Shown here in pieces: positions 1,497 to 5,351 of a stretch of DNA of 64,000 nt. The stretch comes from Prevotella sp. (GTDB lineage: Bacteria; Bacteroidota; Bacteroidia; Bacteroidales; Bacteroidaceae). The notes beneath the pieces are model-generated. The model was not told where the DNA came from and did not search any database. It saw nothing but the letters and a program-made list of their open reading frames with translations. The stretch lies in NCBI GenBank assembly GCA_017428055.1, contig JAFRRN010000078.1, forward strand, positions 45,261-109,260, given 5' to 3'. Each line of letters begins with the position of its first letter. The stretch's first letter is position 1. Both the position numbers and the translations under genes were made by a program.

Positions 1497-2216
1497 TTAC
1501 CATCTTGTTATCACGGTATCATGAGAGGAACTTGGACCTATCAATTGTGGATGCTGTTTCACGCTATAATTTTTTGTACGTGCCGTTACGTCATTATAGA
1601 CATAGCGGAAGAGTTCCATGAGTGTTACCTGGCGGTCGTTATTCTTGTCAGCCTTTCCTCGAAGCCCTTTCAACAAGGCTTGCGTATATAACCCATGACC
1701 TATCCAGTTATTTTCAGCAGAATATTCGTCTGCTCGTGATGACATCATAAAGGTAATGCCCTTATGAACGTCAGCCCAGTAATACTCCATAGGATTTACG
1801 CTGCCAGACTTACATGCGTCAATGAAACAAAAAATTTCCTTTGTTTTTGCATTAGATAGTATTTTCATCAGGTCTTCATAGTAAAAACCCTGAAAGCCAT
1901 ATGTTATCATCCGACCTGTATCACCATGACCAGAAAAGAAGAAGATAATCTTATCTTCAGGCTTGGCGAGTTGGATAATAGCATTTAGCTTCTTTTCAAT
2001 GTTGGAAATTGTCGCATAGCTACTTGTTAGGGTTGCAACTATCATTTCTTGTTTGTCAAGGACCTTCTTTAATTGTTTGACATCCTTAGTCGTGTTCTGA
2101 AGATTCCAATCTTGAAAACCATAATTAGATACACCTGTCAAAAGAGCATACGTTTTTTGTGCGTTGATTCCCATGGAAATCAATGCCACAGCGAGTAAAA
2201 AAGATATACGTTTCAT
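1497..2216 (-). CDS. Caspase-like (C14) protease with signal peptide and EF-hand loop
   Basis: A 239-residue protein if the start is the ATG at 2216, which directly gives a signal peptide (MKRISFLLAVALISMGINAQ); an upstream in-frame ATG would add ten polar residues and is rejected. The caspase/metacaspase fold is shown by the KTYALLTGVSNYG strand, the catalytic His in SGHGD (about His97) and the catalytic Cys in DACKSG (about Cys135). Near residues 190-201 a twelve-residue loop, DKNNDRQVTLME, fits an EF-hand at positions 1, 3, 5, 7, 9 and 12, which would suit calcium activation as in metacaspases. It begins right after the membrane FHA gene (stop at 2218), so translation is probably coupled. 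The predicted location is periplasm or outer face. The substrate is unknown; the neighbouring acidic exported protein is one candidate. The family assignment is firm and the role is inferred. Confidence 0.88.
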   Translation of the reverse strand: MKRISFLLAVALISMGINAQKTYALLTGVSNYGFQDWNLQNTTKDVKQLKKVLDKQEMIVATLTSSYATISNIEKKLNAIIQLAKPEDKIIFFFSGHGDTGRMITYGFQGFYYEDLMKILSNAKTKEIFCFIDACKSGSVNPMEYYWADVHKGITFMMSSRADEYSAENNWIGHGLYTQALLKGLRGKADKNNDRQVTLMELFRYVYNDVTARTKNYSVKQHPQLIGPSSSHDTVITRW

Positions 2217-2217
2217 A

Positions 2218-2916
2218 TTAGTTATGTTGAATGTTACATGTTCCACATCTCATTAATTCTATTTCAGGGTCTGTAAGTATATGGTTGCATTCTGGGTTAG
2301 GACATTGAGAAAAACACTTTTTCTTGGCTTTAACCAGTTTTTCCATCTCTTTCTTTTTTTCTTGAGGGTTATATAAAAATCTCATCATTCTCGTCACAAT
2401 ATTCATCAGCATCCCCCCCCCAATACCAGCCCCGAGGCTTATGCCATTGCCCACTTCAAATTGTTTGCCTATACAATAGATTGCCACAGCTATCAGTATT
2501 GGTAGAGCTATCTCAAGAAAAAAAGATTTCAATTTGATTCTTCTTTCTCTCTTTTTCTCATAGGAAGATAATTCTTCCATCTTGTTGTGAATAAAATCAA
2601 AATCCTCATCAAAGTTTCCAAATTCTTTCACTTGTTTAGCATAAAAGCAACATCCCGAGGTATCGCCCGCCCCCAATATAACGAATGTCATGGGGGTAAT
2701 CCGACACTTGCCAGGCTGTTTTTTGTTTCCAATCAGCCTTAGCCTACCATCATCTTCACGAATAGATGTTCCGTTTGTAGACCAGCGGTCTTCTATCCAC
2801 CAAATACCATAATCGTCAATGGTAATAACAGCATGTTTTCCACTCACAGCAACTTGTGTTTGCTTTAAATGAAATGGTTGATTTCCTTCTGTTCTACCCA
2901 ATATGATTGTTTCCAT
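2218..2916 (-). CDS. FHA-domain membrane protein with C-terminal zinc ribbon
   Basis: A 232-residue protein. Residues 1-95 carry FHA hallmarks: ILGR near the N-terminus, SGKHAVI and WSTNGTSI. A charged coiled segment (about 110-130) leads to two hydrophobic segments (about 132-150 and 158-180), and the C-terminus has CPNPEC and CGTC, a four-cysteine zinc ribbon. It is therefore a membrane-bound, cytosol-facing phosphopeptide reader. Its start lies inside the 3' end of the LytTR gene (23-base overlap), and its stop is next to the caspase start. This packing says the three are one operon. The ligand is probably a phosphothreonine on a cluster partner, but no kinase is visible. Confidence in the domains is high. 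Confidence 0.85.
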   Translation of the reverse strand: METIILGRTEGNQPFHLKQTQVAVSGKHAVITIDDYGIWWIEDRWSTNGTSIREDDGRLRLIGNKKQPGKCRITPMTFVILGAGDTSGCCFYAKQVKEFGNFDEDFDFIHNKMEELSSYEKKRERRIKLKSFFLEIALPILIAVAIYCIGKQFEVGNGISLGAGIGGGMLMNIVTRMMRFLYNPQEKKKEMEKLVKAKKKCFSQCPNPECNHILTDPEIELMRCGTCNIQHN

Positions 2917-3286
2917 CTTCTTTCTTTTCCTTTATTTTAATACTCTTAGAAATAGCATTCTTATAAGATTTCAAAATGTTTTTAGGAATTGTCACTCTTA
3001 TCTCATTTTTGTCATTGTCTGAAAGAACAAGAACTTGTTTCAAAACATCAACTTTCGTCAGATAAGAATGGTTTATGATAAAACTACGTCCAAGTCTAAT
3101 GAAACGATTCTTGTCATTATAGGATTTTAATGTCACTTCAAGTTTAGATATTCCAGTCGTAAGGGTAACTTCTTTCTTCGTGATATAGACAACACGCGAA
3201 TAGTTGCCATTAGCCTGTACGACAGCTATCATATCCGTCTCAATACAATTCAATTCATCCCGTGTATTAAAATACAATTTTGCCAT
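2894..3286 (-). CDS. LytTR-family DNA-binding regulator, no receiver domain
   Basis: A 130-residue protein that is essentially one LytTR domain. The visible parts are a strand with IAVVQANGNYSRVVY, a central basic strand pair around LEVTLKSYNDKNRFIRLGRS, and NHSYLTKVD, the usual LytTR SFIVN..YI equivalent. A lysine-rich tail follows. There is no REC domain, so it is not a classical response regulator. It is the first gene of the FHA-caspase cluster and overlaps the next gene by 23 bases. It probably controls the cluster itself. The promoter region is AT-rich with a partial -7 match (TATATTTA). The whole cluster is more AT-rich than the genes to its right, which suggests transfer. Confidence 0.85.
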   Translation of the reverse strand: MAKLYFNTRDELNCIETDMIAVVQANGNYSRVVYITKKEVTLTTGISKLEVTLKSYNDKNRFIRLGRSFIINHSYLTKVDVLKQVLVLSDNDKNEIRVTIPKNILKSYKNAISKSIKIKEKKEDGNNHIG

Positions 3287-3430
3287 ATATACTTATAAAT
3301 ATAGTTTCTTAAAGAAATACAAAATGCTTTAATCTACCATTTCGCCCTTCTTTCAAATGAAATTATAACACTATTATTCTTGGAATCTCCAACAAGAAAA
3401 TATTGGGTTTGATGGTTAAGGCTACAAAAC

Positions 3431-3470
3431 ATAAAAAGCGTGAGACCCGTACTCGCTACTTATCTCACAC
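3431..3470 (-). terminator. Intrinsic terminator at the 3' end of the structured RNA
   Basis: On the minus strand GUGUGAGA pairs with UCUCACGC (8 bp, one U-G) and is followed by CUUUUUAU. The U-G pair would be a mismatch on the plus strand, so it works for minus-strand transcription. Part of the stem can instead pair with 3501-3510. Confidence 0.6.
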
Positions 3471-3835
3471 TCCTGGCCTTCGAACTTGCCACCTCGTTTA
3501 GATAAGTAACTTCGAAGCCCACGCCGAATATGTATATATAACCCTCTCACAGGAAAAACCCATAAATAAATTTGGGTTTCCAACGAAAGGGATGCGTATA
3601 AACACATCCCGAGGGCATCTACCATTGCAACATCTGCTACGAGGTTTCCAAGTGTTCGAAGTTTGGAGTATAGCGATGAAGCGTTGAGTAAACGCCTTTC
3701 TACATCATGTAGTGATTTCTGCCTTTTCCCACCCATAACCCGCTTTGCTTTGGCAAAATGCCTCACTCGGCTCGGCGTAGGTTGTCTTTAACTGTGTGCT
3801 ATGACGGACAAGTCCATCTTTACACATCACTCAAG
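3431..3835 (-). ncRNA. Structured RNA, about 400 nt; possible orphan HEARO/omega RNA
   Basis: The region has no credible protein; a 114-codon frame here has an unlikely composition. It has many helices on the minus strand. Long-range ones are 3772-3781 with 3518-3527 (10 bp), 3654-3661 with 3478-3485 (8 bp, CUUCGAAC/GUUCGAAG), 3501-3510 with 3455-3464 (10 bp) and 3639-3644 with 3492-3497 (6 bp). Local hairpins include 3589-3610 and 3556-3579. Four helices contain a G-U pair that would become A-C on the plus strand, fixing the direction. It ends in a U-tract terminator. Two blocks, AUGGGUGGGAAAAGGCAG and CGAAGGCCAGGAGUGUGAG, resemble, from memory, conserved stretches of IscB-associated omega RNAs. 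No IscB gene is in the window, so it would be a stand-alone copy. I found no match to RNase P RNA, tmRNA or 6S RNA. The 5' end is approximate. Confidence 0.55.
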
Positions 3836-4124
3836 ACACAGAAATCGGCTATAAAATTACAAAAAAAAGACATCCTACAAACATATTTCATAGTTTTTTT
3901 CAACAAAACGATATGACAAACTGGTTTTTTAACTAGTTTTCCTGTTATTATCCTAATTCATTGCTATGACAATATGATACTGACATCTATAACCTAATAA
4001 AAAAAACATTTGGCGCAATCGGTAAAAAAGTTATTCTGCAAATCACACTTGAAATACCTTGTTTTCAAATTGTCGCAGAATAACCTTGGAAGTTTGATTT
4101 GTGTAGATTTATGTTCCTAATGAT
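3836..4124. other. AT-rich spacer without a gene
   Basis: No credible frame on either strand. A run of A (3861-3868) lies just upstream of the structured RNA and is T-rich on its strand, a possible promoter region, but no clear TAnnTTTG match is visible. Two similar phrases, caaattgtcgcagaat and aaaaagttattctgcaaatc, form an imperfect inverted pair near 4026-4080. Confidence 0.4.
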
Positions 4125-5351
4125 TCATGGACTCACTTCACGAATCCACTCTGCGATGTCGTGAAGCACCTCCTCCGAGATGGTTTGCTCTATCTCGCCA
4201 TATTCATCCACCGCTCCCGTCTTGCATGGTTGGAAGAGATGGTTCAATTCGGGATATTCCTTGATCTTGCTTTTCTTATTCGGTGGCAGGAGGGAGCGTA
4301 TCGTTGAGAGGTTGCTTTCCGTCAACACCTGAGAGTCCTTGCCGCCATTGAGTACCAAGGAGGGACAAGTGACGTGGGCGATGTCATCGGCAGGGTCGTA
4401 GTCAATGAAATAGTCGTACCAAGGATTAGTCTTTTGCATCATCATCAGCAGCCGCATCTGCTTCACGGTCATGGTGGCAGGCTTCCCTTGTTGGCGAAGG
4501 ATGAAGTTGGTCTGTTCCGTCACTATGCTATCGCCACGGATGCCTGTCCCTGCCAGGGTTATGATGAAATCGGGCTTTTTCTCCTTGGCAAGCATGAAGG
4601 CGATAGTGCCTCCCTCGCTATGGCCCAACACCCCTACCCTACTGAATTTGCGCATCCCCCTCAGGAAGGCTATCCCTGCGGCGGCATCATCCTTGAAGTT
4701 GACGGTGGTGGCACGTTGCACGTCGCCCTTCGAGCCCCCCATCCCCCTGTCGTCATAGCGCAATGTGGCGATGCCCTGCCGTGCCAAGTAGTCGGCGATG
4801 ACGGCAAAGGGCTTATGGTCGAACAATTCCTCGTCGCGGTTTTGCAACCCACTACCCGATACCATCAGCACGACGGGAACCTTTTTCTTGCCCTCATAAC
4901 CCACTGGCCATGTCAGCGTACCTGCCAGCGTCGCGGTATCTTTCTCGTTGACGAATGTCACTTCCTCCGTCTTATAAGGATAGGGCGGCTTGGGTGTCTG
5001 AGGACGTTGGCGTACCATCTCGCCCCGTTCCATCACCAAGGGCAAGCGGTAGCCCATCTGCGTGAACGTACCCGACAGCTTCCCATCTGCCACCCGTCCC
5101 TCGTAACTGCCGCCAATCGTGGGGAAACTCACATTCACCGAGTCGTCCGTAATAGTGTTCACCTGTGCCTCGATGCCCTTTGCCCCTTGGTTGGGTGAGT
5201 CCATCGTGCATTTATTCCCGTCCACATGCAACACCAAGGGTATCTTCCTGACACCCAAATCCAAGTCTCCATGCCAAGTGCCTTGCACTCCCTGCGCCCC
5301 TGCCATCATAGGTAAGAGGGTCGCTATCAATAAGAAAAAGCTCTTTTTCAT
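4125..5351 (-). CDS. Exported alpha/beta hydrolase with N-terminal beta domain
   Basis: Starting at the ATG at 5351 gives 408 residues with a clear signal peptide (MKKSFFLLIATLLPMMAGAQ); the upstream ATG only adds a polar extension. Residues about 20-120 form a beta-rich domain (GTWHGDLDLG, LSGTFTQMG) common in exported Bacteroidota hydrolases. The alpha/beta-hydrolase part follows with an oxyanion-region VSGSGLQNRDE, a YDDRGMGGS turn, the nucleophile elbow GHSEGG, a late Asp in LVLNGGKDSQV and a His in PELNHLF. This is the layout of acyl-peptidase-like or esterase-like hydrolases of the 'serine aminopeptidase S33' type. The substrate cannot be told from sequence. It stands alone, pointing away from the MORN lysozyme gene. 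The fold and catalytic triad are firm; the specific reaction is not. Confidence 0.85.
   Translation of the reverse strand: MKKSFFLLIATLLPMMAGAQGVQGTWHGDLDLGVRKIPLVLHVDGNKCTMDSPNQGAKGIEAQVNTITDDSVNVSFPTIGGSYEGRVADGKLSGTFTQMGYRLPLVMERGEMVRQRPQTPKPPYPYKTEEVTFVNEKDTATLAGTLTWPVGYEGKKKVPVVLMVSGSGLQNRDEELFDHKPFAVIADYLARQGIATLRYDDRGMGGSKGDVQRATTVNFKDDAAAGIAFLRGMRKFSRVGVLGHSEGGTIAFMLAKEKKPDFIITLAGTGIRGDSIVTEQTNFILRQQGKPATMTVKQMRLLMMMQKTNPWYDYFIDYDPADDIAHVTCPSLVLNGGKDSQVLTESNLSTIRSLLPPNKKSKIKEYPELNHLFQPCKTGAVDEYGEIEQTISEEVLHDIAEWIREVSP

Follow-up and report, generated by a model that had tools for sequence, protein, structure and literature searches.

A large covarying RNA family of Bacteroidales, proposed as a cis-acting leader of long operons

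On the minus strand of the window, the 64,000-nucleotide stretch of Prevotella sp. DNA analyzed here, a folded RNA lies ahead of three genes that run in the same direction and encode a LytTR DNA-binding protein, an FHA domain protein, and a caspase-like peptidase (Table 1). A preliminary description, made from the letters alone, had called the RNA an orphan and had placed a LytTR-FHA-caspase cluster downstream of it. The cluster was confirmed by matches of the three genes to PF04397, PF00498, and PF00656 and by their shared orientation with the RNA; "orphan" no longer applies to an RNA that has a promoter box ahead of it and this co-directional operon behind it. The same gene order recurs behind a second copy of the RNA on another contig of the same genome (L109), and in another species (L024) a LytTR-FHA pair follows a copy, the third gene there belonging to no known family. 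The limits that we drew from homologs differ slightly from the 3431..3835 given originally: the 5′ stem begins at 3846, and the RNA probably extends from about 3848, or about 3872 depending on which of two promoter boxes is the −7 element, to 3432.

Table 1 Positions of the RNA, its parts, and the genes behind it, in window coordinates
Feature	Position	Strand	Description
Promoter-like stretch	3852..3885	−	two TAnnTTTG-type boxes; consensus as given in PMC7366714
Structured RNA, putative leader	3432..3848	−	5′ end predicted; 3′ end at the U-tract
5′ domain	3714..3846	−	closed by the 5′ stem, GATTTCTG (3846-3839) with CAGAAATC (3721-3714)
Core	3614..3696	−	P1 (3696-3688 with 3622-3614) encloses the P2 hairpin
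P2 in the window	3678-3671 with 3639-3636 and 3634-3631	−	CAUCGCUA with UAGC and GAUG; by eye
Pseudoknot PK1	3478..3661	−	core loop CTTCGAAC (3661-3654) with GTTCGAAG (3485-3478)
Pseudoknot PK2	3491..3645	−	ACCTCG (3645-3640) with CGAGGT (3496-3491)
Hairpin	3589..3610	−	GGGATGTG..CGCATCCC, read from the sequence; present in only some copies
Variable stem	3533-3588	−	3′ of the hairpin GGGATGTG..CGCATCCC
3′ domain	3438..3532	−	conserved CATATTCGGCGTGGGC, P6 (3524-3518 with 3444-3438), P5 (3510-3500 with 3465-3455)
U-tract	3433..3437	−	directly 3′ of P6; terminator-like
Element D	3377..3395	−	hairpin 3′ of the U-tract; predicted stem UUGGA/UCCAA, alternative CUUG/CAAG
First gene	2894..3286	−	LytTR DNA-binding protein, PF04397, E 1.2e-6
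Second gene	2218..2916	−	FHA domain protein, PF00498, E 4.3e-6
Third gene	1497..2246	−	caspase-like peptidase, PF00656, E 2e-21

Between 3400 and 3870, the minus strand has a folding energy of −155.3 kcal/mol (z −5.2), better than that of each of 100 shuffles; the plus strand reaches −125.6 kcal/mol (z −3.7), again equaled by none of 100, so that energy alone prefers the minus strand by degree only. Together with covariation among homologs, this energy bore out the proposed structured minus-strand RNA (about 3848 to 3432), and its U-tract, terminator-like end was recovered as a GC-rich stem followed by TTTTT at 3444-3433 (−). When the whole window was compared with Rfam 15 at the gathering threshold, two tRNAs and nothing else were found; a scan of 3250-4150 at E up to 5 returned two chance-level names only. 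The RNA is thus a large folded family (about 400 letters in the window) with no match in Rfam 15. Two readings had been offered at the outset. That of a new large RNA family stood, backed by homologs, a covarying fold, and absence from Rfam 15, whereas that of a HEARO/omega or guide RNA fell, since the Rfam model RF02033 gave no match on 3250-4150 at E up to 5. In the window, the RNA is traversed by a frame of 114 aa that homologs do not keep. Over 330 nt, the longest stretch free of stops has a median length of 68 codons in the copies and 54 in base shuffles, and only 6.7% of the copies are open throughout; we therefore rejected a protein-coding explanation of the conservation.

A blastn search with 471 bases matched 10 of 100 related genomes, the source genome included, three of them only through 25-28 bases at the promoter-proximal end; in the source genome it found a second place besides the window copy. 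We then built covariance models of the 3′ domain (R1, from 10 sequences) and the core (R2, from 12 sequences), which score 81 bits at 3433-3531 and 96.6 bits at 3588-3698 of the window, respectively. Within the genus, R1 matched 297 of 398 genomes at E ≤ 0.001, among them 126 of the 175 of good quality, in a search that scored 10 candidates per genome and whose per-genome counts consequently stop at 10. In the order, 40 of 247 genomes were matched, and in a draw from the phylum 2 of 395 (E ≤ 1e-6), namely the source genome and one other member of the order. The source genome holds nine R1 matches below 1e-8 and four weak ones, one of the latter being the reverse strand of a strong copy; some species carry nine or more copies per genome. 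R2 was matched in 79 of the 80 sources that hold an R1 match, and it was absent from 12/12 genomes without R1 and present in 4/4 with it, an agreement that indicates that the patchy distribution is real. An exact motif scan of named genomes yielded at least 119 stretches, 80 of which were used and 39 not; the carriers included Prevotella, Paraprevotella xylaniphila (with YIT 11841), Bacteroides acidifaciens (with DSM 15896), B. caecigallinarum, Phocaeicola oris, Muribaculaceae, and others. One match (L173) lies in a metagenome-assembled record titled Clostridium sp., possibly a misbinned Bacteroidales sequence. A phage or plasmid element was considered and set aside: phage and plasmid collections held no match to the window RNA, and viral contigs contained neither the conserved motif as an exact pattern nor a relative of the window LytTR protein.

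Because RNAalifold recovered only part of P1 and P2 on a 61-sequence core, the helices were written by hand from visible complementarity, giving a structure of 58 pairs that was then counted on these 61 sequences of our own selection. Paired cells amount to 90.7%, compared with 83.2% in shuffles and 41-46% when one partner is slid, a comparison that favors the written over the slid versions since the helices were chosen on the alignment used for counting, and in which the shuffles ignore relatedness. The covariation score of the written structure is 0.345 (0.215 in shuffles), and double changes occur at 39 of the 58 pairs (22.6 in shuffles), so covariation among homologs supports the structure. 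The strongest helices are P6 and P5 in the 3′ domain (99.3% and 98.8% of cells paired) and P1 in the core (95.5%); P2 reaches 87.5%, helix P2a is weak at 67.4%, and the core junction GCAAYGG is conserved. Pseudoknot PK1 is paired in 99.1% of cells with double changes at 7/7 pairs, one of which occurs as C-G 37 times, G-C 17 times, A-U three times, and U-A three times. PK2, where the MAFFT alignment is uncertain, is paired in 75.0% of cells, and many double changes are seen at 6/6 of its pairs, with four to six pair types each. The two pseudoknots are long-range ties between the core hairpin and the 3′ domain. The interior of the 5′ domain differs in sequence among copies. Its closing 5′ stem was examined by a swap test on the 101 copies that have an exact promoter box and a recognized core; a copy's own partner beat the median swapped one in 73 of them (z −8.6). 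Since the 5′ end sits in this covarying stem with a downstream strand of the same RNA, it offers no free guide end.

Promoter-like sequence precedes the RNA. In the window, TAATTTTA at 3859-3852 (−) has one mismatch to TAnnTTTG, the Bacteroidetes −7 box, and aligns with the −7 boxes of the homologs, and an exact TAnnTTTG lies 26 nt upstream of it at 3885-3878 (−). We read the TTTG of the latter (3881-3878) as the −33 element; alternatively, the exact match could itself be the −7 box. Of 132 copies, 120 have an exact TAnnTTTG in the interval 280-480 nt upstream of the R1 match end, with 14.2 expected from base composition; of 136 copies, 3 have one 10-110 nt downstream of that end, with 6.4 expected. 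A promoter immediately ahead of the first gene is accordingly unsupported, the box being rarer there than expected. Box and U-tract are a median of 321 nt apart (range 278-462, 101 copies); the median 5′ UTR stated in PMC7366714 for B. thetaiotaomicron is 32 nt.

At the other end, at least five U in the 8 nt after the last helix were counted in 130/135 copies and in 18/135 at a control place, the former figure being slightly low because the T motif was placed two bases early in some copies of the second set (below), an offset that also touches the exact T, U1, and U2 strands of these copies. A recount with the stem end set more exactly gave 133/134, with 2/136 copies unrecognized. Many U-tracts include C, and some copies disrupt the local terminator hairpin.

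In 57/68 and 49/59 copies of two sets, an ATG frame of 80 codons or more opens in the same direction 15-200 nt further on, and such a gene is missing in ten or eleven copies per set. For random positions drawn from the same loci, 50 and 54% of trials pass this loose test, and 21/66 and 14/59 pass it on the divergent side upstream. Since the test is often passed by chance, the informative part is the clustering of distances: 44 of the 57 and 34 of the 49 gene starts fall at 60-91 nt from the R1 match, the LytTR gene of the window starting at 147 nt. Runs of at least 3 kb follow the RNA in 43/64 copies and other operon heads of the same loci in 15/56 (p 1.1e-5), counted with crude ORF calls on the 64 copies that have a 5 kb flank and a gene at the expected place. 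Our survey of protein families covered 61 genes in first position and 84 in second or third, a few listed genes and those missed by the ORF filter being left out. Among the first 25 of 38 families, the first genes encode BspA-type repeats (11), NusG (5), LytTR (3), and, in ones and twos, DUF2971, AbiH, tubulin-like, SPFH, and other proteins; among the first 25 of 104 families, the following genes encode BspA-type (10), Big_2 (5), caspase (3), FHA (3), and TerD (2) proteins. These lists suggest no common pathway. The NusG-like genes directly behind the RNA were each checked individually (L022, L100, L101, L122, and L124). Because a single-contig genome (G045) with seven RNA matches has only one NusG match, no NusG paralog is needed, and NusG/UpxY was ruled out as an obligatory partner; in the source genome, neither of the two loci with NusG matches has a core match at E up to 10.

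Beyond the U-tract lies element D. The strand directly before the U-tract, T, has three possible partners, namely the conserved 5′ strand of P6, a local strand, and hairpin D; in the window, D offers GAGATTC (3389-3383) to GGGTCTC of T (3448-3442) at −8.7 kcal/mol. We ran swap tests on two sets of copies. The first comprised 68, made up of 48 of 56 R1 matches (eight weak ones left out) and 20 from other R1 coordinates; the second comprised 67, the 80 motif-scan stretches minus 12 duplicates of the first set and one without a T motif. For D with T, a copy's own partner was better than the median swapped one in 59/68 copies of the first set (z −8.8) and better in 49/67 of the second (z −4.9). 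T with the local strand gave z −7.3 and −6.0, and T with the invariant 5′ strand of P6 gave z −3.8 and −1.8; all of these tests ignore relatedness, redundancy having been removed from the sets only where copies shared 200 nt of identical sequence. Polymerase makes D only once it is past the U-tract, so pairing of D with T comes too late to keep the same polymerase from terminating; D would mark the read-through transcript, and its pairing is also compatible with a role in translation or stability. D lies 90 nt from the start codon in the window and, by eye, closer in most copies inspected. One copy with a D-like hairpin (L102) has no good gene behind it and faces the end of an rpoC-like frame, perhaps as a relic.

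The copies thus carry a promoter box ahead, a same-strand gene close behind, and no such box between. The statistics of the family, its fold, the box ahead, the U-tract, the lack of a box from U-tract to gene, the D-T pairing, and the long operons together suggest, with a probability that we put at roughly 0.6, that the RNA is a cis-acting Bacteroidales leader that terminates transcription by default and gates read-through into long operons. The gated operons are probably the BspA-like, the NusG/UpxY-led, and, in the window, the LytTR-FHA-caspase ones. Transcription would start at the TAnnTTTG-type promoter at the 5′ end, and the RNA would fold compactly into a 5′ domain, a core hairpin, and a 3′ domain joined by the two pseudoknots. 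P6 and the U-tract would form a terminator directly ahead of the operon, at which most transcripts would end by default. Under some condition the folded RNA would let polymerase pass into the long operon, and in the read-through transcript hairpin D could pair with the strand before the U-tract to form an alternative 3′ structure close to where the first gene begins. It is termination itself, regulated read-through, and its regulator that we infer here. Since the operons share no pathway, are long, and in some cases are led by NusG, we lean toward elongation control, antitermination-like and suited to long, costly operons, over a metabolite riboswitch.

A special case of this gated leader would be a processive antitermination RNA of the put/EAR type, which binds polymerase and lets it resist the terminators within the operon. 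The position directly after the promoter box, the long transcription units behind the RNA, the copies ahead of NusG-led operons, the want of a coherent ligand theme, and the dispensability of a NusG paralog in the single-contig genome would all suit it; against it, the epsC (EAR) and JUMPstart models of Rfam gave no match, and we entertain it only tentatively. A version of similarly tentative standing involves RNA alone: the pseudoknotted leader would act on polymerase and switch on the surface, NusG-led, and conflict operons, with D completing the active fold once the U-tract has been passed.

Control of translation by a riboswitch or protein-binding leader appears somewhat less likely still; here the fold and the D-T contact would govern how ribosomes gain access, and the U-tract would serve as a structural linker. 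This reading would account well for the place of D, between U-tract and start codon and pairing back into the RNA with covariation, and for the C in so many U-tracts. It accords poorly with a stem and U-tract kept in 130 of 135 copies, beyond what a linker needs, and with operons that, in the first 25 families of each survey, have no shared function indicating one ligand. The enclosure between promoter box and terminator-like end, and the strong conservation of stretches left unpaired, could also reflect a free trans-acting RNA, released as a stable noncoding transcript at the U-tract, with the downstream gene incidental. We consider this improbable: several copies per genome at a near-constant distance from co-directional genes of differing families form a cis pattern, and D, which covaries with the RNA, lies outside the terminated transcript.

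HEARO, the omega RNA of IscB (RF02033), is likewise a large bacterial structured RNA with a pseudoknot, and resemblance to it had been suggested in the preliminary description. No HEARO turned up when 12 loci with a homolog or a weak match were scanned against Rfam (E up to 1), and its model matched 0/1 source genome and 0/247 genomes of the order, which weighs little as the control genomes were also unmatched. The six genes adjoining the window copy belong to other families or to none, and no IscB/IsrB-type family appeared behind other copies in the part of the two surveys that covers the first 25 families (of 38 and 104). With only the suggested resemblance and the size of the RNA for it, and with no model match at permissive thresholds, no IscB-type neighbor, a 5′ end paired rather than free (z −8.6, 101 copies), and RRXRR protein in 0/40 related genomes (the control gave no match either) against it, we regard a HEARO/omega or other guide RNA that has lost its IscB-type nuclease as having a negligible chance of being correct.

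Among known systems, EAR (epsC motif, RF01735) and put RNAs are leaders of about 60-130 nt near the promoters of long surface or phage operons and are thought to change polymerase. The Bacteroidales RNA shares with them a leader position near the promoter of long operons; it differs in phylum and in size, with box and U-tract 321 nt apart at the median (101 copies), and the window RNA is unmatched by the EAR model, a motif listed as a Bacillales cis-regulatory candidate in PMC2864571. Riboswitch-type attenuators are also 5′ untranslated RNAs with a terminator-like end just before the gene, whereas the present RNA is larger than usual, serves no common pathway, and has element D beyond its terminator. 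UpxY antitermination is described for Bacteroidales operons in PMC12118408, and the LoaP determinant is a small hairpin according to PMC12691694. The leaders of UpxY (Bacteroides) and LoaP (Bacillus) likewise head long surface or secondary-metabolite operons, dfn having an early terminator, and NusG-like genes lie directly behind some copies of our RNA too; in contrast to the small hairpin given for LoaP, the Bacteroidales RNA is a large fold, and one genome that carries it has just a single NusG match. The smtA motif ("Soda Lake RNA") exceeds 350 nt in Thioalkalivibrio, and PMC11109978 describes its function as unknown and cis-regulation as unlikely; it is likewise a large RNA of unknown function and differs in its host. 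Among the papers that our literature searches listed, we recognized no earlier description of the Bacteroidales RNA, although supplementary candidate lists may hold an entry. Four genus words sought in the text of PMC8632094 were not found there, and the 3161 candidates reported in PMC8040213, a human-microbiome survey, could include parts of the RNA.

We rate the RNA as a new family of the leader type, unusual in size, fold, copy number, and an element beyond the terminator. If the gated-leader reading is right, a large and elaborate RNA family of host-associated bacteria, outside the RNA library, stands ahead of surface, NusG-led, and conflict operons and would give the long operons of Prevotella and related bacteria a shared point of control. 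How such operons turn on would become testable with one reporter, the LytTR-FHA-caspase cluster of the window would gain a regulatory setting, and the covariation-supported fold is of a size suited to structure determination.

Two further loci showed features of their own. In the single-contig genome, a core match of 116.8 bits (L013; G045:C1:2905504-2905616), the strongest of its R2 search, stands without a 3′ domain and is a truncated copy. At L012:100-241, we observed a long GCACAA-rich inverted repeat with below-threshold matches to microRNA families.
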